Positions 21,691-34,272 of a stretch of 34,948 nt of DNA are shown in pieces; the first letter of the stretch is position 1, and every line of letters begins with the position of its first letter. The notes beneath the pieces are model-generated. The model was given only the letters and a program-made list of their open reading frames with translations. It did not search any database and was not told the origin of the DNA. The stretch covers positions 1 to 34,948 of the forward strand of contig CANRFU010000012.1 in the NCBI GenBank assembly GCA_947629975.1, read 5' to 3'. The DNA is from an uncultured Oscillospiraceae bacterium (GTDB lineage Bacteria; Bacillota; Clostridia; Oscillospirales; Oscillospiraceae). The translations under genes were made by a program, and so were the position numbers.

Positions 21691-22907
21691 ATGGCAAGAA
21701 AACGCGCCAACGGTGAGGGCAGCATCCGTAAACGCAAGGATGGCCGCTGGGAGGGACAAATCGTGGCAGGCCATAAGGGGAACGGCAAACCCATCTTCCG
21801 CTACGTCCTCGCCCCGACCCAAAAGGAGCTGCTGGCCAAGCTCCACCGGGACGTGGAGCTGGCAGACAGCGGCGGCATGACCTTCGGCGAATGGCTGGAC
21901 CGCTGGCTGGCGGAGTACGCCGCCGGCACCGTGCGGGAGAGCACCCTCCGGGGCCACCGTCATTATATCGACCACTACATCAAGCCCCACCTGGGGCAAA
22001 AGAAGCTGTCCACCCTCACCACCAACGACGTGCAGAAAATGTATAGCTGGCTGAAACAGTTCGGTAGGATCAGAGCGCACCCGACGCTGGGCCATCAGCT
22101 CTCCAACGAGACCATCTGCCACATCCACCGCACTCTGCACCACGTCCTGGACGCCCCCGTGGCCGCTCACCTGATCGTCCGCAACCCGACCGAAGACGCC
22201 ACAGTGCCCAAGCCGGACCACCCGCCCAAGCAGATCCTGAACAACGCCCAGCTGGACCGATTTATGGAGGTCATCAATGGCGACCCCGTCTGGCATGACT
22301 TCTTCTATACCGACGGAAGAAGGGCGGCGGCTATACCACCGGCGAGACGAAAACCGGCAGGGGCAGGCGCAAGATATTGCTTCCCGCCAGCACCGCCGAA
22401 CTGCTGAGGAAACGGAAGCCGTCAGCCCACAGCGAGTGGATCTTCATGCAACCGCTGAAGCCAGGCCAGCCCGTCGATCCCGGCGCGGCTTACAGGCGGC
22501 TGAAGCAGCTCCTGGAGGAAGCGGGCCTGCCCGACATCTCCTTCCACGCCCTGCGGCACACGTTCGCAACACACGCTCTGTCCAGCGGCGTGGACGCCAA
22601 GACGCTGGCGGGCATCCTGGGCCACACCAACGCGGCCTTTACCCTGAACACCTACACCCACGTCACTGACGCCATGAGGCAGTCTGCCGCCGACAAGATC
22701 GATCGGGGCATCGCCAAATGCGAGCCCGCTGCAGGGGCAAGCGCCGCCGGTGAGGGTGTGCCCGCCCCTGGCGACGGAACGCGCCGGAGGCCCGCCTCTG
22801 AGCCGTACAAGGGCAAGATCCGCAAGGCCGGGACAGGATGTGATACCGAAACGAATTTCCGGCCCCTTTTCGGGGGAAAGAGGCCGTTCGATTATTGGAC
22901 AAAATAA
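21691..22907 (+). pseudogene. Tyrosine recombinase/integrase with internal deletion and frame disruption
   Basis: N-terminus MARKRANGEGSIRKRKDGRWEGQIV... in one frame to HDFFYTD; C-terminus GGYTTGETKTGRGRRKILLPASTAELL...HALRHTFATHALSSGVDAKTLAGILGHTNAAFTLNTYTHV in another; the segment expected to carry the first catalytic Arg is missing. Confidence 0.85.
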
Positions 22908-23532: not shown

Positions 23533-24471
23533 CTACATCCCCGCGTTGGTGTCCACCCTGAATTCCCGATTCGCATATTTCACATGGTAGAAAAATGGAT
23601 TCTCTACGGCCCACTGGGGGTCATCGTCCGCCTTGGCCTGGTAGTTGCGGTATGCCCGCACAAATCCGGCGTGCAGAGAATCCTCGGCGTCCAGGCGGGC
23701 ACGCACCGCTTCCTCAAAATTCTTATAGCAGCCAAGGTCGTACCGCTTCTTCTGAAACTGGATGACGGCCCGATATGTGCCGCGCCTGATCGGATAGACC
23801 CCGCGGAAACCGGAGCTGTTGTTGCGGGGATTGTTTTGGGTGCTCACCAGCCGCTCCACGCAGGTGTCCTCCGTCAGGTGCAGATAGGTGTGCAGTTTTT
23901 CGCCCGCCTCTTTTGTCAGGCATCCGCAGCTGTGGGTAAAGCCGTTCAGAAGGCTGTAAGCGCTGGTCTCGAATTCCTTCCCGCAGTCGCAGCGGCAGCG
24001 CCATATGGCGCTGCTGCCCTTGTGGGGACCGCGGACGGGATAGAGCGCCACGGCCCGGTCGAAGCGCCGGCCGGTCAGGTCCGCCCCTTTGAAGGCGCTG
24101 TACTGCTTGCAGCCGCAGCTCTTGATGTTCCCCTTCTTCAGATCCAGGGACCGGACCGGGTGGAGTTTCCCGCAGCTGCACCGGCACATCCACCGGGTCC
24201 GTCCGCCGGCGCTTTCCATCCGGTACAGGGCCGTCAGCTCCCCGAAGGTCTGCCCTGTGAGATCCTCTGCCCGCCGTTGGAGCGGATGCGTTTTGGAAAC
24301 GCAGCCGCAATTCGGCGGCTCCGCGCTGTTCAGGCGTCCACTGGAGACCAGGATCTCGCCGCCGCAGTCGCAGCGGCAGCGCCATAAGATACAGCCGTCC
24401 TGGCGCTGTCCGGAGTCCCCAAGGACAGTAAGCCGTCCGAACCGTGCGCCTTGCAGATCGTTTTTCACCAT
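23533..24471 (-). CDS. AP2-domain DNA-binding protein with three Cys-rich repeats
   Basis: NNSSGFRGVYPIRRGTYRAVIQFQKKRYDLGCYKNFEEAVRARLDAE (AP2-like); three repeats of the form W-x-CRCxCG...SCGC; RBS aaaggag. Confidence 0.82.
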   Translation of the reverse strand: MVKNDLQGARFGRLTVLGDSGQRQDGCILWRCRCDCGGEILVSSGRLNSAEPPNCGCVSKTHPLQRRAEDLTGQTFGELTALYRMESAGGRTRWMCRCSCGKLHPVRSLDLKKGNIKSCGCKQYSAFKGADLTGRRFDRAVALYPVRGPHKGSSAIWRCRCDCGKEFETSAYSLLNGFTHSCGCLTKEAGEKLHTYLHLTEDTCVERLVSTQNNPRNNSSGFRGVYPIRRGTYRAVIQFQKKRYDLGCYKNFEEAVRARLDAEDSLHAGFVRAYRNYQAKADDDPQWAVENPFFYHVKYANREFRVDTNAGM

Positions 24472-24495: not shown

Positions 24496-26211
24496 TCATC
24501 TTTCCCGCCGCACCGAAAGATCCTCGACCCGATAGACCCGATCGCACCCGTCAATGACGGACTGCCGATGCGAGACGATGACGATGGTTTTTTCCCCTTT
24601 CAGCGCGTAGATGGAATCCAGAACTTCCGCTTCGGTATCCGCATCCAGGGCGGAGGTGGATTCGTCAAAGATCAGGACCGGGCAGTTCCGGTACAGCGCC
24701 CGGGCGATACCCAGCCGCTGGCGCTCTCCGCCGGACAGGCGGACGCCGCCCTCGCCCACCAGGGTGTCCAGCCCCTCCGGCAGCGCCCGGACCATGGCGG
24801 CCAGGGACGCCCGCTCCAGCGCATCCCACACAGCCGCGTCCGAGACCTGGTCCTCCGGGACGCCGAACGCCACGTTGCTGCGGATGCTGTCGTCCAGCAG
24901 GAAGATAACCTGGGGAAGATAGGCGATTTTTTGCAGATAGCTCCTGCGGCAGTTCGAAATATCCAGACCATCCGCGAAAACCGCGCCCTGCTGAGGCTCC
25001 AGCAGCCCCAGGAGAATGTCGATGAGAGTGGTCTTGCCCACCCCGGAGGGCCCGACGATCCCCACGGAAGCCCCGATGGGGATCTCGATCCCCGCGTCCC
25101 GCAGTACCGGCTCCGGGCGGCCCTCATAGGAAAACGTAATTCCCTTGGCTGTGATATCCCTGGAGAGCGTGATCTCCTGCTGCCGGCCGGCGTGATCCTC
25201 CGCGTGTCTTATATGCTCCCACGCGTCGCAGACGGATTCCACGGAGGGTTTGTTATAGTTCATTTGCGTCAGGCTGGAATTGATGCGGCTGCACGCGGGC
25301 ATCAGGCGCAGCGCCGCCAGCACAAGGGCGGATAAACTGGGCAGGAACAGGAGGATATCCCCGCCTGCCGCCAGCAAAAACACTACATAGAGCAGGACGA
25401 ACAGCACCATGACCCCCTCAATGCAGATCCTCGGCGCCCTGGATAAAAGCTGGCTCAGCGCCTCCGCCCTCGCAAATCCCCAGTCACTGCGGGAATAGTG
25501 ATCGCAGAAGAAATCCTCCGTCCGCCAGGCTTTTATCTCTTTGATGCCATGGACCCCCTGGTTCATCCACTTCAGCCGGGCCGCGTTGGCCGTCCGCCGG
25601 GTCTGTCCGGCCCGCAGGGCCTGCCGCCGTATGAGCACCCGCGTCAGGAAGAAGGATACCGCCGCCCCCAGGAGCACAAACAGGGTCATGACCGGATTGA
25701 CCACCAGGAGCAGCACGCTGATGGAGAGCATGACAAACGCCTCTGTCACGACCTGGAGAAACGCGTTGCAGTAATTGGCGGTCTGGATAATCCCCGAGTG
25801 CAGGAGATTGTTCACCTCCGCCGCGCTGGTCCTCGTGAAGTACTCATAGGGACTGTGGAGCAGGCCGCTGAACAGCTTGGTGGAGAGCTCGTGGCGGAAG
25901 TCCCGGGAGAACCGGGCCAGAACGTAGTTTTCCGCCAGCAGGTAGAGCATTTTGAACAGGTACAGGAAGATCAGGGCGGCCACCAGCGCGGCGGTCAGGG
26001 ATCCCCCCGGCCGCAGACCGGTCCAGCGGCAGAGCCACGCGATGAAGGCGCTTTCCGCCATGCGCCCCTCGTCCACCAGCAGGGAGCAAACGGACACCAC
26101 CAGCGAGATCCCCAGCATCTCCAGAAGAGAACCGAAGAACATAACGGGCAGCAGCGCCAGCAGCTGTCGTCTTCTTTTCCCCTCGATCAAGAGGAAAATA
26201 GTCTTAAACAT
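24496..26211 (-). CDS. ABC exporter, fused transmembrane and ATP-binding domains
   Basis: Walker A GPSGVGKTT, signature LSGGERQRLGIARAL, Walker B VLIFDESTSALD; start chosen at MFKTIFLLIEGKRRRQ; no C39 peptidase domain seen. Confidence 0.92.
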   Translation of the reverse strand: MFKTIFLLIEGKRRRQLLALLPVMFFGSLLEMLGISLVVSVCSLLVDEGRMAESAFIAWLCRWTGLRPGGSLTAALVAALIFLYLFKMLYLLAENYVLARFSRDFRHELSTKLFSGLLHSPYEYFTRTSAAEVNNLLHSGIIQTANYCNAFLQVVTEAFVMLSISVLLLVVNPVMTLFVLLGAAVSFFLTRVLIRRQALRAGQTRRTANAARLKWMNQGVHGIKEIKAWRTEDFFCDHYSRSDWGFARAEALSQLLSRAPRICIEGVMVLFVLLYVVFLLAAGGDILLFLPSLSALVLAALRLMPACSRINSSLTQMNYNKPSVESVCDAWEHIRHAEDHAGRQQEITLSRDITAKGITFSYEGRPEPVLRDAGIEIPIGASVGIVGPSGVGKTTLIDILLGLLEPQQGAVFADGLDISNCRRSYLQKIAYLPQVIFLLDDSIRSNVAFGVPEDQVSDAAVWDALERASLAAMVRALPEGLDTLVGEGGVRLSGGERQRLGIARALYRNCPVLIFDESTSALDADTEAEVLDSIYALKGEKTIVIVSHRQSVIDGCDRVYRVEDLSVRRER

Positions 26212-26247
26212 GAAGGCCTCCGCGCTCTTTAAGGACTGCACCCCCGT

Positions 26248-28338
26248 TTATTGCGCCGGCGTTGCAGGGGGCAGGATGAATTTCTCTCCGAATTTCCGGT
26301 CCCACTCCTCAGATTCAAATTGGAGTCCGGCATATAAAGTCAATTCACCGATATACAGCTTTCCTTCGGCCTCGTAAAAATCCGCTCTGATCTGAGGAAA
26401 TCCTTCAGATAGCTTTCCGGCGATCTTCAACATCTGCCGGAAATGGGGCGGCGGATCATAGTCCTCGCCTCGCCGTCCTTTGCGTATCACAGGTAGCTTA
26501 TTCCAATCTAAGTCATAGAAAGAAGTTGACATATTCCTATCGGAGGCAAACCGATCGGTAATACAGTAGATATACTCTGGCTTTCCGTCAAAGCACAGAA
26601 CCTTGTAATCAGTAAGCTGTCCATTATTACCCACCAACAATTTTTCCGCGATAATTCTGGGCGTTATCCCGAAATACGCCCGAAGATAACCGTTGATTCC
26701 CGTATTCAAGGGGTCCAGCCACTTTTTGACCTCCCGGAACAGCGCCTTTACATCCACGCTCTCCTTATTGCGGATGATCTTTAAATTCATGCCGGAACTG
26801 GAACAGTTGGATTTCAGGCAAAAAGCGTCCGGCAAACTGTCCCAATCCCGCTTAAAGCCGCGCATATCCGTCCACATGCCGTAAAGGGGCGCGGTCCAGC
26901 CTGGCCCCAGCTTTTCCTCGATATAGCCCTTGAACAGGTATTTGTCGTAGAGCCGCGTCAGGTCGGGGTGCTCAAAGAAGAGGCTGTACCAAAGCCGCTT
27001 TTCCGTGAACAGAACCGGGTGCTCCAAATCGAAGGTGTGTCCCTCCCGGCGCTCGTAGTCCCGCATCGCCTTGGCGACCCGCTTCTCCAGCGGCCACTGG
27101 CTGACCGGCTTTTGGAATGGCCGGAGAAGGATGCGCTTCATTTTCCGCGCCGCCAGTCGGAAGAGGTTTTCCCCATCCCGCGGCGCCCAGATCTCCCGCA
27201 GCTTGCCGAAGCTGCGTTTTCTCCTGGCAAAGACGCCCCGGAACAGCCGGGATCCCCAGAAAAACGGGACCGCCCACCGGTGGCGGTACGCAAACGGCGC
27301 GTTTTCGCGGTACCAATTGACATCCGGAAAGATCCAGCGGAAAAGGTATTTTACCCGCGTGCTGCCATTCGCCGCCTTGCCGTCGGGCCGCAGCTTTTTC
27401 AGATCATTCTGGACGTGATGGGACACGGTCCCATAGACGCCGGAGCTCTCCACCCAGGCCAGCATGGCGGCCTCGTCAGCCGTCAGTTCCGCCGCCGGGG
27501 ACTGCGGGCCAAAGAGCTTGTCCGATAAAGACCGGCAATCGCGCTCAAACGCCGACAGACCCAGCTTTGCCAGCTCCCCCGCGATATATCTCTCGTCCAG
27601 CGCCGTCTTCCGCAGGCGGTACAGATAGACGTCCAGCAGGGTGCGCAGCCCCGTGCCGCCTCCGTCGTAGTGCTTGAAGGCGTGGGCCAGGAAATAGAGA
27701 TAGAAATCCTCGTCAGTGAAATGATAGCCGAAGTCGTTGCCCGGGTCCTTGACAAGCCGCTCCCGCACGTCCGCGTAGTAAGCGGCGCAGGCCGTTAAAA
27801 AGCCTCCCTTTCCGTCATCCGAAAACAGCTTCCGATGCAGCTCGAACCGGTAGACGGGCGGTTTTTCATAGCTGTAGTGAGCGCCCGCTTCGGCGAACTC
27901 CCCCGTATAGCCCCGGTCTCTCATGTGATCCCGGACCGTTCGCCAATATGCTGCGTCAAAGAGGATGTCGTTGTCCGAGAACTGCCGGACGCCGTATTGG
28001 GGGTAGAACGCGTTTAAAACGGCGCCCTTGAGGGGCGCGTACCAGATCCCGCGCTGTTCCAAAAAGGCCAGCAGTTCTTTCCGCTCCGCGTCCATGAGGA
28101 TCGTCTTGCGGATGGATTGTTCCTTTGCCGTCCGGAAGCGCTTCGCCGTCCCGGCTGGGCAGAGCGCCATGAGGCCGGTCTGCTCCAGGGCCGCGCACGC
28201 GGCGGCGGACAGCAGATGCCGGTTCGCCGTCTGAAAAAGCGCCTCGAAGTCCGGCGTTTCCGCCGGCTCCAAGGCGGTTTTATGGATCCATGCCGCCAGC
28301 AGGCGGCACAGGGTTTGTCCTGCGTTTTCTCCGGTCAT
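26248..28338 (-). CDS. Fusion of nucleotidyltransferase-like domain (PF14907-type) and TupA-like ATP-grasp domain (PF14305-type)
   Basis: N-half: LKGAVLNAFYPQYGVRQFSDNDILFD, YEKPPVYRFELHRKL, AHAFKHYDGGGTGLRTLLDVYLY; C-half: YLFKGYIEEKLG, SLPDAFCLKSNCSSSGMNLKI, RIIAEKLL, DYKVLCFDGKPEYI, IRADFYEAEGKLYIGELT. Confidence 0.8.
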   Translation of the reverse strand: MTGENAGQTLCRLLAAWIHKTALEPAETPDFEALFQTANRHLLSAAACAALEQTGLMALCPAGTAKRFRTAKEQSIRKTILMDAERKELLAFLEQRGIWYAPLKGAVLNAFYPQYGVRQFSDNDILFDAAYWRTVRDHMRDRGYTGEFAEAGAHYSYEKPPVYRFELHRKLFSDDGKGGFLTACAAYYADVRERLVKDPGNDFGYHFTDEDFYLYFLAHAFKHYDGGGTGLRTLLDVYLYRLRKTALDERYIAGELAKLGLSAFERDCRSLSDKLFGPQSPAAELTADEAAMLAWVESSGVYGTVSHHVQNDLKKLRPDGKAANGSTRVKYLFRWIFPDVNWYRENAPFAYRHRWAVPFFWGSRLFRGVFARRKRSFGKLREIWAPRDGENLFRLAARKMKRILLRPFQKPVSQWPLEKRVAKAMRDYERREGHTFDLEHPVLFTEKRLWYSLFFEHPDLTRLYDKYLFKGYIEEKLGPGWTAPLYGMWTDMRGFKRDWDSLPDAFCLKSNCSSSGMNLKIIRNKESVDVKALFREVKKWLDPLNTGINGYLRAYFGITPRIIAEKLLVGNNGQLTDYKVLCFDGKPEYIYCITDRFASDRNMSTSFYDLDWNKLPVIRKGRRGEDYDPPPHFRQMLKIAGKLSEGFPQIRADFYEAEGKLYIGELTLYAGLQFESEEWDRKFGEKFILPPATPAQ

Positions 28339-29714
28339 ACCGTATCCGTCCGGGCCGGAACGCCCGCTTTCCAGTCCTCGTAGCTGCCCAGTATTCCGCG
28401 GAGGATTTTTTCTTCACGGCGCGCCCGTTCGATGGGGGAACAGTGTTCCGGCCTGTTAGGGCATTTTTTCAGGCGGATACACTGAGGGTAGACGGGGCAC
28501 GCCTTGCAGGCCGCCTCCGGCGGATTTCGCTCCTTCCACTGACGGAGAACTTCTTCATCCACCTTGTCGGAGTAAATGCTCCCCCAAATGGAGTCGTTCA
28601 TACAGCTTGTGCATCCGCATAAAAGGCCCTCTGGGGTCACGGCGGTGGAGCCGCCGCTGTTGTCGGCCATGCAGGAATTGACGGTGATTCCGAGCTTCAG
28701 CGGCGGGCGTGTCGCGACGCCCTTCTTCTCCAGATAAGCTTGCATCAATCGGAGACCTCGGGCATAGGCGCTGCTTTCCTCCTCCGTATAGCCGAAGCGT
28801 TCAATACCCTTGTTTTCAAAAAGCACCGCCAAATAAACGCCAAAGTCCGGCTTCCCGCCGAATCGCTCCGCCAGCTCGTCCGCCAGCGCGTACAGATCAC
28901 CCTCGTTGTCCCCGTCCATGTTCAGCCGCACGGTGACCCGAACGCCCGCGTCCAGCAGCAGGCCGATGTTCCGAAGCACTCGCCGGTACGGACTGCCTTG
29001 GGGGGTCACATAGGACTTTCGCCGGTTGTAGACCTCCTCAGTGCCGTCCATGGTGATTTGCACATCCTTTAAGCTCCAGGCGTTTTTTGCCCGCTGTACA
29101 AGCGCCTCGTCGAAGAGATACCCGTTGCTGAGCATGGTTGAGCGAAATTCCGTCCCCTGCTGCCGCAGACAGTCTGTGATGATGTCGATGACACGGGTGT
29201 TCACCAGCGGCTCGCCGCCGAACCACTCTATGTGGACCGGTTTGCCGCCGCAATGCGCCAAGATATACTTCGCCGTGTCCCTGGCGGTCTGCTCCGACAT
29301 AGAGCTCCTTTTCCAGCCGGATTCAAAGCAGTAGAAGCAGCGTGCGTTGCAGGTCGTGGTGGTGAAAATGGTGTATCTGGTTAAGGCGGTTTCCTTTTCC
29401 CGCACAAAGAGGCCCGCGATTTCTCTTACCTGATCCGCCAGAGCCATGTCGTCCGCCTCAAGAGGGCGGAGGAACCACCTGGCTGCCGGCTCTCCCAAGG
29501 CCGGCGGAACGGGGCCGGGGAGTTTCCCCAGCGCCGCCGCTTCCTCAGCGGACAGCAAAAGAAGCTCCCCGGTCAGGGTGTGATAAAGAAGCACCCCCTC
29601 CGGCCGCTCCACACGCATACAGTGGACGCTGAGCCGGTACGGGGCTCCCTCCTCAACCTTTTGCCGGCCGAGGATCTTTTGGACAGTTTGGATTGGTGAA
29701 ACGACCTGACGCAT
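28335..29714 (-). CDS. Radical SAM/SPASM peptide maturase
   Basis: CNARCFYCFE (CX3CX2C), IEWFGGEPL, QITMDGTEEVYNRRKSY, C-terminal Cys-rich SPASM-like region CGCTSC...CKACPVYPQC; start at MRQVVSPIQ with RBS ggaaga; stop overlaps the next start (ATGA). Confidence 0.92.
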   Translation of the reverse strand: MRQVVSPIQTVQKILGRQKVEEGAPYRLSVHCMRVERPEGVLLYHTLTGELLLLSAEEAAALGKLPGPVPPALGEPAARWFLRPLEADDMALADQVREIAGLFVREKETALTRYTIFTTTTCNARCFYCFESGWKRSSMSEQTARDTAKYILAHCGGKPVHIEWFGGEPLVNTRVIDIITDCLRQQGTEFRSTMLSNGYLFDEALVQRAKNAWSLKDVQITMDGTEEVYNRRKSYVTPQGSPYRRVLRNIGLLLDAGVRVTVRLNMDGDNEGDLYALADELAERFGGKPDFGVYLAVLFENKGIERFGYTEEESSAYARGLRLMQAYLEKKGVATRPPLKLGITVNSCMADNSGGSTAVTPEGLLCGCTSCMNDSIWGSIYSDKVDEEVLRQWKERNPPEAACKACPVYPQCIRLKKCPNRPEHCSPIERARREEKILRGILGSYEDWKAGVPARTDTV

Positions 29715-29824: not shown

Positions 29825-29932
29825 TTATTCAAGTTGTTCAATAACACACTCACAACACTCACTCGCAAAAATGATGTCCTCAGCGTCGATCTCGATGATC
29901 TCCAGAACCGGAGTTTCATATATTTCTTTCAT
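29825..29932 (-). CDS. Putative RiPP precursor peptide, 35 aa (not in supplied ORF track)
   Basis: MKEIYETPVLEIIEIDAEDIIFASECCECVIEQLE; RBS aaaggag 8 nt upstream; sits between an S24/S26 peptidase and a radical SAM maturase, same strand. Confidence 0.8.
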   Translation of the reverse strand: MKEIYETPVLEIIEIDAEDIIFASECCECVIEQLE

Positions 29933-30007
29933 GGTATTTTCTCCTTTCCTATTACCATCAAGTTGTTTTTATGATATATCCTGAACGGGCGGGTCTCCCG
30001 TCCGGTC

Positions 30008-30475
30008 TCAGGCGTTGTTTCGCGGCGCGTCGCCGCCGGGGCCCCGGAGCTTTCTCCTGACCCGTCCGGGCAGGGCCCGGCACCACAGAATGGCCGCCCG
30101 CAGCCAGAACAGATCGCACCACAGGTGAACATACAGCCAGTACCACCGGTCCGCCACCGGGATTTCCTTCCCGTCCCGCACAAAGGCGGTGAGCACGCCG
30201 ACAATCTGCCGGTCGGTGACGCCGTACTCCCGCCACCACTGGTTGTCGCCGCAGAGGACATAGCCGTCCTTCCGCACTTTCAGCACCCGGTGCAGGATGT
30301 ATTTGCCCGAATCCCGCTTGTAGAGGGGCACGTCGTACCGCCGCAGTTTCCCGTTTGGCCGCTCAATGACGAGCAGGTCCCGTTTGGGCCGCAGCATGGG
30401 CAGCATACTGCCGCCCACATTGGTGTAAATCAGGCGCCCCTCCCGGGCCAGCACATCCTCGAAGCGGGTATTCAC
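30008..30475 (-). CDS. S24/S26-type (signal-peptidase-like) serine peptidase
   Basis: VGGSMLPMLRPKRDLLVIER, KYILHRVLKV, GDNQWWREYGVTDRQIVGVL. Confidence 0.8.
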   Translation of the reverse strand: MNTRFEDVLAREGRLIYTNVGGSMLPMLRPKRDLLVIERPNGKLRRYDVPLYKRDSGKYILHRVLKVRKDGYVLCGDNQWWREYGVTDRQIVGVLTAFVRDGKEIPVADRWYWLYVHLWCDLFWLRAAILWCRALPGRVRRKLRGPGGDAPRNNA

Positions 30476-30726
30476 TCCTGGATGGCCCCGATACCCCGCA
30501 GCTTAGCCAGCACCTCCGCCACGTCCTTCTCGATGGTCTCCCGGGGCGCGTCGTACTTTGCCGCCATGGCGTCCACGATCTGCTCCGCCGTGGTGGGCGT
30601 TTTCAGCGCCTCGATGATGAACGCGGCGGTCTTGTTGCTCCGCACGATGCCGGAGAAGCCCTCCGTGGCTACCATGGTGTGCTCGCCGCTGGCGGTGTAT
30701 GTAATGAATGTGTCTTTCAGTTTCAT
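30472..30726 (-). CDS. PqqD-like peptide recognition protein
   Basis: 84 aa; KLKDTFITYTASGEHTMVATEGFSGIVRSNKTAAFIIEALKTPTTAEQIVDAMAAKYD; overlaps neighbours at both ends. Confidence 0.82.
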   Translation of the reverse strand: MKLKDTFITYTASGEHTMVATEGFSGIVRSNKTAAFIIEALKTPTTAEQIVDAMAAKYDAPRETIEKDVAEVLAKLRGIGAIQE

Positions 30727-31466
30727 GGATATTCTCCTTCGCTCATCGCCTCATAGGCCACCCGGGCCGCCTCCAAATCCGGGGTACACCGCAGCCGGTA
30801 CAGCCGGACGGTTTTGGAAAGGGTATCCGTCAGGGCCAGCGTTCGCCGCAGCTTCTCCGGGTCGACGGGCCGGTAGCTCTGCCGCCACAGCACAGGCCAC
30901 GCCTCCTTCGGGGAGATGGGCTCGATGGTGTTGTCCGGCCCCCGCTCCAAAACGCAGATTGCCCTCAGCGGGACGGAGATATTGCGGCTCAGGTGGTGTT
31001 TGCCGTCCCAGGGCGTACCCCAGACGGTGACGCCCGCGCCGGAGATCTCCAGCAGCGGTTTGTCGTCGTTCACCATGACGGCCCGCTCGCCCAGCAGCTC
31101 CCGCCACAGGCGGGCGTGGGTGGATTTCCCCGTGCCGCTTTTGGCGGCGAAGAGATAGCACGCCCCGTCCACCGCCACGGCGGAGCCGTGGAACAGCAGG
31201 ACGCCGTCTTCGAGCAACGCCTCCGCCAGCTTGCGGTAGACCGCCAGCGTCTCCAGATACGCGTCGTGGCCGGGCCGGCCCTGTCCACCGCCGGTTTCTC
31301 CGGCCGCCGAACGCCGCCGCTCGTCGTCGATGTCGCTCTGGCTGACGGACAGAAAGAGCGACGGGCTGTCCTCCGTCCGGTACTCGCCGCACATGGTGTG
31401 TACCAGGGGGTACAGGGAGCTGATCTCCACCGTGCGGCCCGCGAATCGGTAAACATGTCTTTCCAT
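30723..31466 (-). CDS. HPr kinase-like P-loop protein
   Basis: Walker A AAKSGTGKSTHARLW, LLFHGSAVAVDGACYLF, VNDDKPLLEI, GTPWDGK; first gene of the RiPP-like operon. Confidence 0.82.
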   Translation of the reverse strand: MERHVYRFAGRTVEISSLYPLVHTMCGEYRTEDSPSLFLSVSQSDIDDERRRSAAGETGGGQGRPGHDAYLETLAVYRKLAEALLEDGVLLFHGSAVAVDGACYLFAAKSGTGKSTHARLWRELLGERAVMVNDDKPLLEISGAGVTVWGTPWDGKHHLSRNISVPLRAICVLERGPDNTIEPISPKEAWPVLWRQSYRPVDPEKLRRTLALTDTLSKTVRLYRLRCTPDLEAARVAYEAMSEGEYP

Positions 31467-31800: not shown

Positions 31801-32256
<456 letters not shown>

Positions 32257-32939: not shown

Positions 32940-34129
32940 TCAGCCGGCAAGAGAGGCATCCTCTAACGTAACCTCCAAGTGCCTCATGTTCATGTGCTTC
33001 TTGTTGCCCCACTGGGTGCCGGCCACATGGCGCAGCCGGGCACAGACCAGCATCAACGCGGAGTTCCCATCCGGGAAAGCGCCCACCACCCGTGTGCGGC
33101 GGCGGATCTCTCGGTTCAGACGCTCGATCACATTGTTGGTTCGGATGCGCGTCCAATGCTCCGCCGGGAAGTCAAAGTAGGTCAGCGTCTCATCAATACC
33201 GGCCTCGATCTTTTTGGCTGCCTCCTGCAGCTTCATCTCCCTCAGTTCCGCCACCACCAGCCTGGCTTTCTCCCTGGCCGCCCGCTTGCTCTCCTGGGCG
33301 TGGATCGCCTTGAGCATCTTGGACACCAGCTTCATCTTGGAGTGGGGCGTCACGGAGAACACGTTGCGGTAGAAGTGGACTGTACAGCGCTGATATTTGG
33401 CGTCGGGGAACACTTTGCCCACTGCCTCCAGCATCCCCAGGCACTTGTCGCCCACCACCAGCTTCACGCCGTCCAGGCCCCGGCCTCGCAGCCACTGGAA
33501 GAAGTTCACCCAGCTGGCCTTATCCTCCTTCATTCCCTCGGCGGCGCCCAGAACTTCACGGTATCCGTCCTCATTCACCGCGATTGCCACCAGAATAGCC
33601 ACATTTTCAAACTCTCCACCCCAGTTCCGGCGCAGGTAGATACCGTCCACATAGACGTAAGGATAGCGTCCGCCCTGCAGAGGACGGTTCCGCCAGTTCT
33701 CGATATGGACGTATGCTTTCTTGTTCAGCTCGCTGATCGTGGCCGGAGACACTTTGCTGCCTCACAGGGCTTCCGTGATGTCCTCCACACGGCGCACGGA
33801 CACCCCTGCCAGGTACATCTCGATCAACGCTTCCTCCACGCTGCTCTCCCGCCGGCGGTACCGCTCGATGATGGCGGTCTCGAAGGTCACGCCTTTCAGC
33901 CGAGGTACTTTCAGCGTTACATCCCCGGAGGTGGTGGTGAGGTTCCGGCTGTAATGGCCGCTGCGATAGCCCCGGCGCTGCTCACTGCGCTCATAACGGC
34001 CGCCTGGGTCAGTTTTTCTGCCTCGGCGTCCAATAACTCGTTCAGCGTCTCTTCTACGCTCCCACGGACCAGTTCTTTGATTTGCCCCTTGATTACTTCC
34101 TCGTTCAGTTGTACAATTTTCTCGGACAT
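32940..34129 (-). pseudogene. IS256-family transposase, inactivated by a frameshift and a nonsense codon
   Basis: MSEKIVQLNEEVIKGQIKELVRGSVEETLNELLDAEAEKLTQA | GRYERSEQRRGYRSGHYSRNL...VRRVEDITEAL * GSKVSPATISELNKKAYVHIENWRNRPL...; frame change near 34009 and TGA at 33762-33764. Confidence 0.9.
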
Positions 34130-34272
34130 GGTTTGCTTTCTCCTTTCGAATGGTGTGTCGCGACTTCATTCTACCAGAGATTGCAAACCCTGTCCTTTTA
34201 TTTTCTCAATTTCCGCAATTTATTGTACTTTATCATGTTTTTCCCCTCCTTACCACAAAATTCAGAGAAAAA

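Follow-up and report, generated by a model that had tools for sequence, protein, structure and literature searches.

The 35-residue open reading frame (ORF) described here, located in a 34,948-nucleotide stretch of DNA from an uncultured Oscillospiraceae bacterium (the window), most probably encodes a RiPP precursor whose core cysteines would be modified to thioethers by the radical SAM enzyme encoded next to it. The gene itself is confirmed; all of the chemistry we infer from sequence. The peptide belongs to a large, apparently unnamed family of gut-bacterial precursors in which a constant leader is followed by a variable tail (Table 1).

Table 1. Features of the window and, in the last line, loci of the wider leader family.
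Feature	Location	Strand	Evidence or remarks
Precursor peptide gene	29825..29932	(-)	Translation; leader HMM from other loci; homologues directly before the radical SAM gene in L012, L013, L014
Ribosome binding site AAAGGAG	29941..29947	(-)	8 nt from ATG; sequence
Leader, residues 1-24, MKEIYETPVLEIIEIDAEDIIFAS	29861..29932	(-)	Column counts; dN/dS 0.04-0.31
Variable core, residues 25-35, ECCECVIEQLE, with Cys26/Cys27/Cys29	29828..29860	(-)	Sequence and length not conserved by position among relatives
HprK-like kinase	30723..31466	(-)	NCBIfam ScmC TIGR04249 2.6e-5, HprK_rel_B 2.1e-4, both below cut-off
PqqD family protein	30472..30726	(-)	PF05402 2.3e-17, 63.5 bits vs cut-off 23.4
S26 signal-peptidase-like protease, Ser-His type	30008..30475	(-)	TIGR02228 3.6e-4, below cut-off
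Radical SAM/SPASM maturase	28335..29714	(-)	PF04055 2.8e-15; CX3CX2C; seven invariant C-terminal Cys
NTP_transf_5 fused to TupA-like ATP-grasp	26248..28338	(-)	PF14907 8.5e-40, PF14305 4.8e-33
ABC transporter	24496..26241	(-)	PF00005 7.5e-26, PF00664 3.6e-12; L014 homologue in same position
Giant-protein loci	L047, L048, L049, L061, L063-L065, L067, L071, L076, L078-L080, L082, L084, L086		

Translation of the frame gives MKEIYETPVLEIIEIDAEDIIFASECCECVIEQLE followed by a stop codon. The initial annotation had placed this ORF, with its AAAGGAG, between a peptidase gene and a radical SAM gene on the same strand, and both coordinates and order were borne out: the S26-type peptidase gene stops at 30008 and the radical SAM gene starts at 29714, 110 nt from the end of the short ORF, a spacing identical in the relative L012. 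A frame this short, and lacking annotation, could have arisen by chance. A leader HMM trained on 18 homologues, the window's own peptide being left out, gave a score of 39.2 bits (E = 1.6e-11 over 851 six-frame stretches of the window), versus 3.5 bits for the runner-up frame of the window and 8.0 bits as the best result from 20 shuffled windows. The leader is under purifying selection and the core is free to vary: dN/dS over leader codons 2-24 was 0.04-0.31 in all six comparisons, whereas the tails vary both in sequence and in length. For the window's leader the values were 0.31 against L012, 0.05 against L013 and 0.07 against L014, and 11 of 14 differences from L013 and 10 of 16 from L014 fell at third codon positions. 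The leader HMM score, the purifying selection and the homologues in many genomes rule out a chance ORF, a reading to which we attach practically no weight.

Among 25 aligned leaders, a set chosen in part by a pattern containing D-I-S, Asp19, Ile21 and Ser24 were each found in 25/25, Tyr or Phe at position 5 likewise in 25/25, Glu11 in 21/25 and Pro8 in 16/25; Y5, P8, L10, E11, D19, I21 and S24 of the window peptide agree with conserved family columns. The division into a leader and a core proposed in the initial annotation stood, the former being conserved and the latter variable, but not its confinement of the leader to the N-terminal half: conservation extends to Ser24, and the core therefore comprises about 11 residues. 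In all 16 tabulated Cys-bearing cores, the first Cys lies at most four residues after Ser24. The leaders matched no family in NCBIfam, and in the literature searched we found neither the leader motif in print nor a description of the gene set.

In GTDB genomes, the three nearest relatives encode radical SAM proteins with 72% (L012), 65-66% (L013) and 56-58% (L014) identity to that of the window, preceded by the peptides MKEAYETPELEIILIDEEDIIFSSGGTCSDVCTDGECSLE, MKEKYETPVMEIIEIEEEDIIFASSGCAEGLPDT and MKEKYEAPVVEIIAIDKEDIIFASGGSCGE, respectively. Since peptides of the same kind precede the radical SAM gene in all three and the leader dN/dS is low, the ORF is conserved, and neither of the outcomes named beforehand as counting against it (no conservation, or frame-breaking substitutions) was observed. 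The prediction that a conserved leader would be paired with a variable core beside a radical SAM gene likewise held, as seen in the HMM, the dN/dS values and the relatives' tails. L014 keeps the order HprK-PqqD-S26-peptide-rSAM-rSAM-NTP-ABC. A tandem pair of radical SAM genes follows a single precursor at L013:941-3689 and L014:4611-7374; the window has one. L012:4398-8044 keeps the precursor, the radical SAM enzyme and the ATP-grasp, and here the adjoining HprK, PqqD and S26 homologues and the NTP domain are absent.

The 110-nt gap, equal in the window and L012, could also suit an ORF that regulates the radical SAM gene, as a leader or attenuator, rather than encoding a substrate, and the spacer has a good fold in L012 (z -4.2) and a moderate one in L014 (z -2.1). 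However, it is unstructured in the window (z 0.4) and shows little structure in L013 (z -1.0), the amino-acid sequence of the leader is conserved and the RNA is not, and homologues occur far from any radical SAM gene. Based on the spacer z-scores, the protein-level conservation and these remote homologues, we rejected the attenuator, which we consider very unlikely.

The genes run, on the minus strand, in the order HprK-like kinase, PqqD, S26 peptidase, peptide, radical SAM/SPASM enzyme, NTP_transf_5 plus ATP-grasp, and ABC transporter, and the 4-nt overlaps at HprK/PqqD, PqqD/S26 and rSAM/NTP are those of an operon. The HprK-like protein has a Walker A sequence (AAKSGTGKSTH) and an NDDKP region conserved in 15 relatives (alignment A4), and is only weakly related to named families. 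The PqqD protein is probably a leader-binding RRE protein, the S26-type protease is the probable leader peptidase, and the ABC transporter is probably the exporter. Ser23, His62 and Asp77 of the protease are invariant in 12 relatives, and its profile matches signal peptidases and SEC11A at about 1e-3; by analogy with SEC11-type signal peptidases, which have this Ser-His arrangement, these residues would be catalytic. The NTP_transf_5/ATP-grasp protein is a possible tailoring enzyme. Its halves are lost separately, the ATP-grasp in L014 and the NTP domain in L012, and neither half looks essential to the radical SAM step because each is missing in one relative. Behind the ABC gene, a protein of about 310-340 residues is encoded in the window (23533-24471, minus strand) and in L014 (L014:10304-11335), with a weak AP2 domain match in L014 and no clear Pfam family for the window copy.

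The radical SAM CX3CX2C motif corresponds to Cys122/126/129, and seven further Cys (348, 368, 403, 406, 412, 418 and 425) are invariant in 20 homologues, a pattern that corresponds to a SPASM domain with auxiliary clusters. The enzyme thus carries both the radical SAM motif and the SPASM-type auxiliary Cys expected of a ranthipeptide or sactipeptide maturase. The nearest solved sequence is CteB (5wgg, 5e-26), followed by 8vpo (TigE) and SkfB. AlphaFold models of the radical SAM and HprK proteins, for which proteins of the window and L012-L014 served as input, reached pLDDT values of 56 and 48, and we used them solely for the overall match of the radical SAM enzyme to RiPP maturases: the fold of its low-confidence model is also closest to these, including CteB and SkfB. 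When compared with the NCBIfam maturase families, the enzyme missed every cut-off (best, TIGR04463, 121.6 of 525 bits; PapB, 73.5 of 340; SCIFF, 56.9 of 425; Clo7bot, 94.2 of 600). We read it as a CteB/PapB-like maturase that would turn core Cys into thioethers. The window resembles the ranthipeptide and sactipeptide systems (CteB-SCIFF, PapB-PapA, SkfB) in having a short Cys-bearing precursor beside a radical SAM/SPASM maturase with auxiliary-cluster Cys, but differs in that its leader matches no NCBIfam family, its radical SAM enzyme falls under all family cut-offs, and its operon adds the HprK-like kinase, NTP_transf_5 and the S26 peptidase, which are not known to occur in those systems.

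We also compared the operon with the SynChlorMet cassette (ScmC, ScmD, ScmE), which includes a PqqD-like member. The HprK-like protein matches ScmC (2.6e-5) and the radical SAM enzyme matches ScmE (3.3e-10), but all window matches lie far below the cut-offs, and that cassette is not known to include an S26 peptidase or NTP_transf_5 protein. Its name was not found in the literature searched.

A profile built from eight such peptides (A1) identified 65 places in 43 of the 401 genomes of the host's family, a few of the weakest being spurious long ORFs. Typing the locus contexts with HMMs of the window's proteins, we found that the HprK-like, PqqD, S26, ABC and NTP_transf_5 proteins recur beside the peptide in about ten loci without a radical SAM enzyme of this type (L066, L069, L070, L071, L072, L080, L081, L083, L084 and L086), with some members missing or beyond contig ends. 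Parts of the gene set occur together with the radical SAM enzyme in the window, L014, L046, L051, L052, L059, L061 and L062, the Cys peptides of L046 lying on contigs other than that of its radical SAM gene; in L085, HprK-PqqD-S26-peptide is followed by a very divergent radical SAM gene and the tail is Cys-bearing. Because the gene set and leader recur without it, the radical SAM enzyme is a module rather than a constant partner. Across several genomes we thus find what is generally expected of a RiPP precursor, namely a short ORF with a conserved leader, a variable core and modifying enzymes adjacent. The tails in the ten loci without the radical SAM enzyme are short, acidic and Cys-free.

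Next, we compared the presence of Cys in the core with that of the radical SAM family in the genome. A core could be recognised in 53 leader peptides, and Cys was present in it in 12/16 where the family was present versus 2/37 where it was absent (Fisher p = 5e-7); 7 of the 12 Cys peptides had served to build the profile, for which Cys was not a selection criterion. With profile members removed, the proportions were 5/9 versus 2/37 (p = 0.0016), bearing in mind that both tests treat related genomes as independent and that the profile was built from peptides linked to the radical SAM enzyme. A genome-level comparison (9/9 versus 2/34) was set aside, as up to four genomes without the enzyme have a borderline Cys peptide. 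The two Cys-bearing exceptions are G272, with a divergent radical SAM gene beside the peptide, and G244, with the Cys far down the tail, and 4 of the 16 leader peptides in radical SAM genomes have no Cys. Outside the host's family, Cys-bearing tails are found at the radical SAM loci of G440 (L061) and G658 (L059/L138, two peptides). In G175, which has a single radical SAM locus, three additional leader peptides with Cys are encoded elsewhere, suggesting action in trans, with one enzyme serving several precursors. Core Cys thus accompany the maturase across genomes, as looked for in ranthipeptide and sactipeptide systems, and this association supports a precursor beside a radical SAM/SPASM maturase.

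Asp or Glu occurs at +2 or +3 from Cys in 18 of 34 cases, compared to 11.2 in shuffled cores (p = 0.0045, in a post hoc test over several offsets). PapB joins Cys to Asp or Glu and tolerates Cys-Xn-Asp with n = 0-6 (PMC9413430). The enrichment and this precedent favor a ranthipeptide product. It is conceivable, as a minority possibility that we take seriously, that the radical SAM enzyme instead acts on the same precursor to make alpha-carbon thioethers (a sactipeptide) or another Cys-dependent change: SkfB and CteB, both among the sequence and fold neighbors, are deposited as sactipeptide-type maturases, and several Cys-bearing cores (L064, L085) have no nearby acidic residue, such that the thioether acceptor may vary. 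The Asp/Glu enrichment 2-3 residues past Cys, albeit weak, speaks against this reading.

The core Glu residues had also been put forward as ATP-grasp substrates, a proposal for which we found no support: L014, although syntenic, lacks the ATP-grasp half, as do most related clusters, and acidic tails without an ATP-grasp neighbor are found in many relatives that lack the radical SAM enzyme. Although the operon resembles those of graspetides in containing an ATP-grasp domain, this domain is TupA-like (PF14305), shares one protein with a nucleotidyltransferase and can be dispensed with in relatives, and is not a graspetide-kind ligase present as a constant partner. We rejected a graspetide on the basis of this domain type and its absence in L014 and most related clusters. 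A different ATP-grasp (PF14397) occurs in a related radical SAM cluster at L062:4830-5969, a second case of an ATP-grasp neighbor.

The recurrence, in about ten loci, of HprK-PqqD-S26-ABC-NTP clusters with the same leader and no radical SAM enzyme suits another explanation, in which the step common to the pathway is the attachment of phosphate, or of a nucleotidyl or glycosyl group, to Ser24 or the tail by the HprK-like and NTP_transf_5 proteins, and the radical SAM enzyme is a late minority add-on. Ser24 is invariant, the HprK-like kinase of phosphorylated lasso clusters modifies a core Ser with the assistance of the PqqD-like B1 protein (PMC10368454), and the nucleotidyltransferase PsmN has been linked to glycosylation (PMC7533575). 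This explanation, which we regard as rather unlikely, leaves the occurrence of Cys mainly with the radical SAM enzyme unexplained, and the invariance of Ser24 may reflect the site of cleavage instead. This explanation and a thioether precursor do not exclude each other.

The operon shares further features with the phosphorylated lasso peptides paeninodin, pseudomycoidin and BsfA, whose clusters combine a YxxPxL leader motif, a PqqD-like RRE, an HprK-like kinase, a nucleotidyltransferase and an ABC transporter (PMC10368454, PMC7533575); relatives additionally show a T-S-G-like junction, and a true lasso precursor would account for the leader motif and the PqqD, HprK-like, NTP_transf_5 and ABC neighbors. 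Lasso leaders follow Y(-17)xxP(-14)xL(-12), with Thr at -2 and Gly at position 1 (PMC10368454). In the window, YxxPxL is present but its Tyr precedes the presumed first core residue by 20 positions, a motif-to-core spacing 3 residues longer; position -2 is Ala, and the core begins with Glu and contains Cys. The B2 protease (PF13471) had no match in the whole genome (G000, 93% complete), and the asparagine-synthetase-like cyclase (PF00733) had none among the seven operon proteins, its genome matches lying on other contigs (C1, C93); the operon has an S26 peptidase and a radical SAM enzyme instead. We rejected a true lasso peptide, which we consider highly improbable, because its defining enzymes are missing. 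With protease and cyclase missing and both spacing and junction different, the window peptide is not a lasso peptide but may share leader recognition with this class.

Mobile elements surround the operon. It is flanked in the window by a resolvase fragment (31801-32247) and a Mutator-family transposase split over two ORFs (32940-34169), and on its other side by a phage-type integrase in two frames (21691-22907). Resolvase DNA with 83% nucleotide identity also lies upstream of the L012 cluster (L012:4592-5234), and an integrase is found upstream of that of L014. Given these flanking genes and those upstream of the L012 and L014 clusters, the cluster may travel with mobile elements. No close relatives were found among viral contigs, phages or plasmids.

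Returning to the thioether-bearing RiPP favored here, we propose that the PqqD-like protein would bind the leader through its YExPxLEI...EDI stretch, and that the radical SAM/SPASM enzyme would then take a hydrogen from a core residue and join that residue to the thiol of Cys26, 27 or 29, the most plausible link being a PapB-type (ranthipeptide) one from Cys to Glu. Further groups, possibly phosphate, may come from the HprK-like kinase and the NTP_transf_5/ATP-grasp protein; the Ser-His S26 peptidase would cut the leader off near Ser24, and the ABC transporter would export the product.

In the wider family, giant secreted proteins of about 600-2500 residues are encoded just upstream of leader peptides. 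Of 34 leader loci, 20 have a same-strand ORF of 550 codons or more whose end lies 13-183 nt upstream, and the upstream proteins of 19 loci share a C-terminal domain of about 130 residues with no Pfam match, ending in ...ALYxYYxAAxxY. Of 30 loci taken from the matches to a profile of this domain, 20 encode a leader peptide in the retrieved flank, and the majority of those 20 had contributed to the profile. Some relatives carry 20-50 copies of the domain; the window's genome and eight further genomes of the genus gave no match to it, and the link to giant proteins concerns the wider family, not the window's operon. Because many members are encoded immediately after giant secreted proteins, the peptide may act on the cell surface or in concert with it; such a pairing of small modified peptides with giant surface proteins we did not meet in the literature searched.

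Together, these data raise the prospect, which we advance tentatively, as something short of the likelier outcome, that peptides with the leader [YF]ExPxxEIIxFxxEDVIxTS form an unnamed RiPP class of their own in gut Clostridia. Such a class would have a core set of HprK-like, PqqD, S26, NTP_transf_5 and ABC proteins and lasso-like leader recognition with no cyclase; the radical SAM thioether step would be a module added in the window's branch, and many members would stand behind giant proteins. The analysis provides a searchable leader profile for a common, unannotated gut-Clostridia peptide family tied to defined enzymes, and links small modified peptides to giant surface proteins. The occurrence of the same leader with and without the radical SAM enzyme and Cys constitutes a natural experiment through which the part played by each enzyme can be tested directly.
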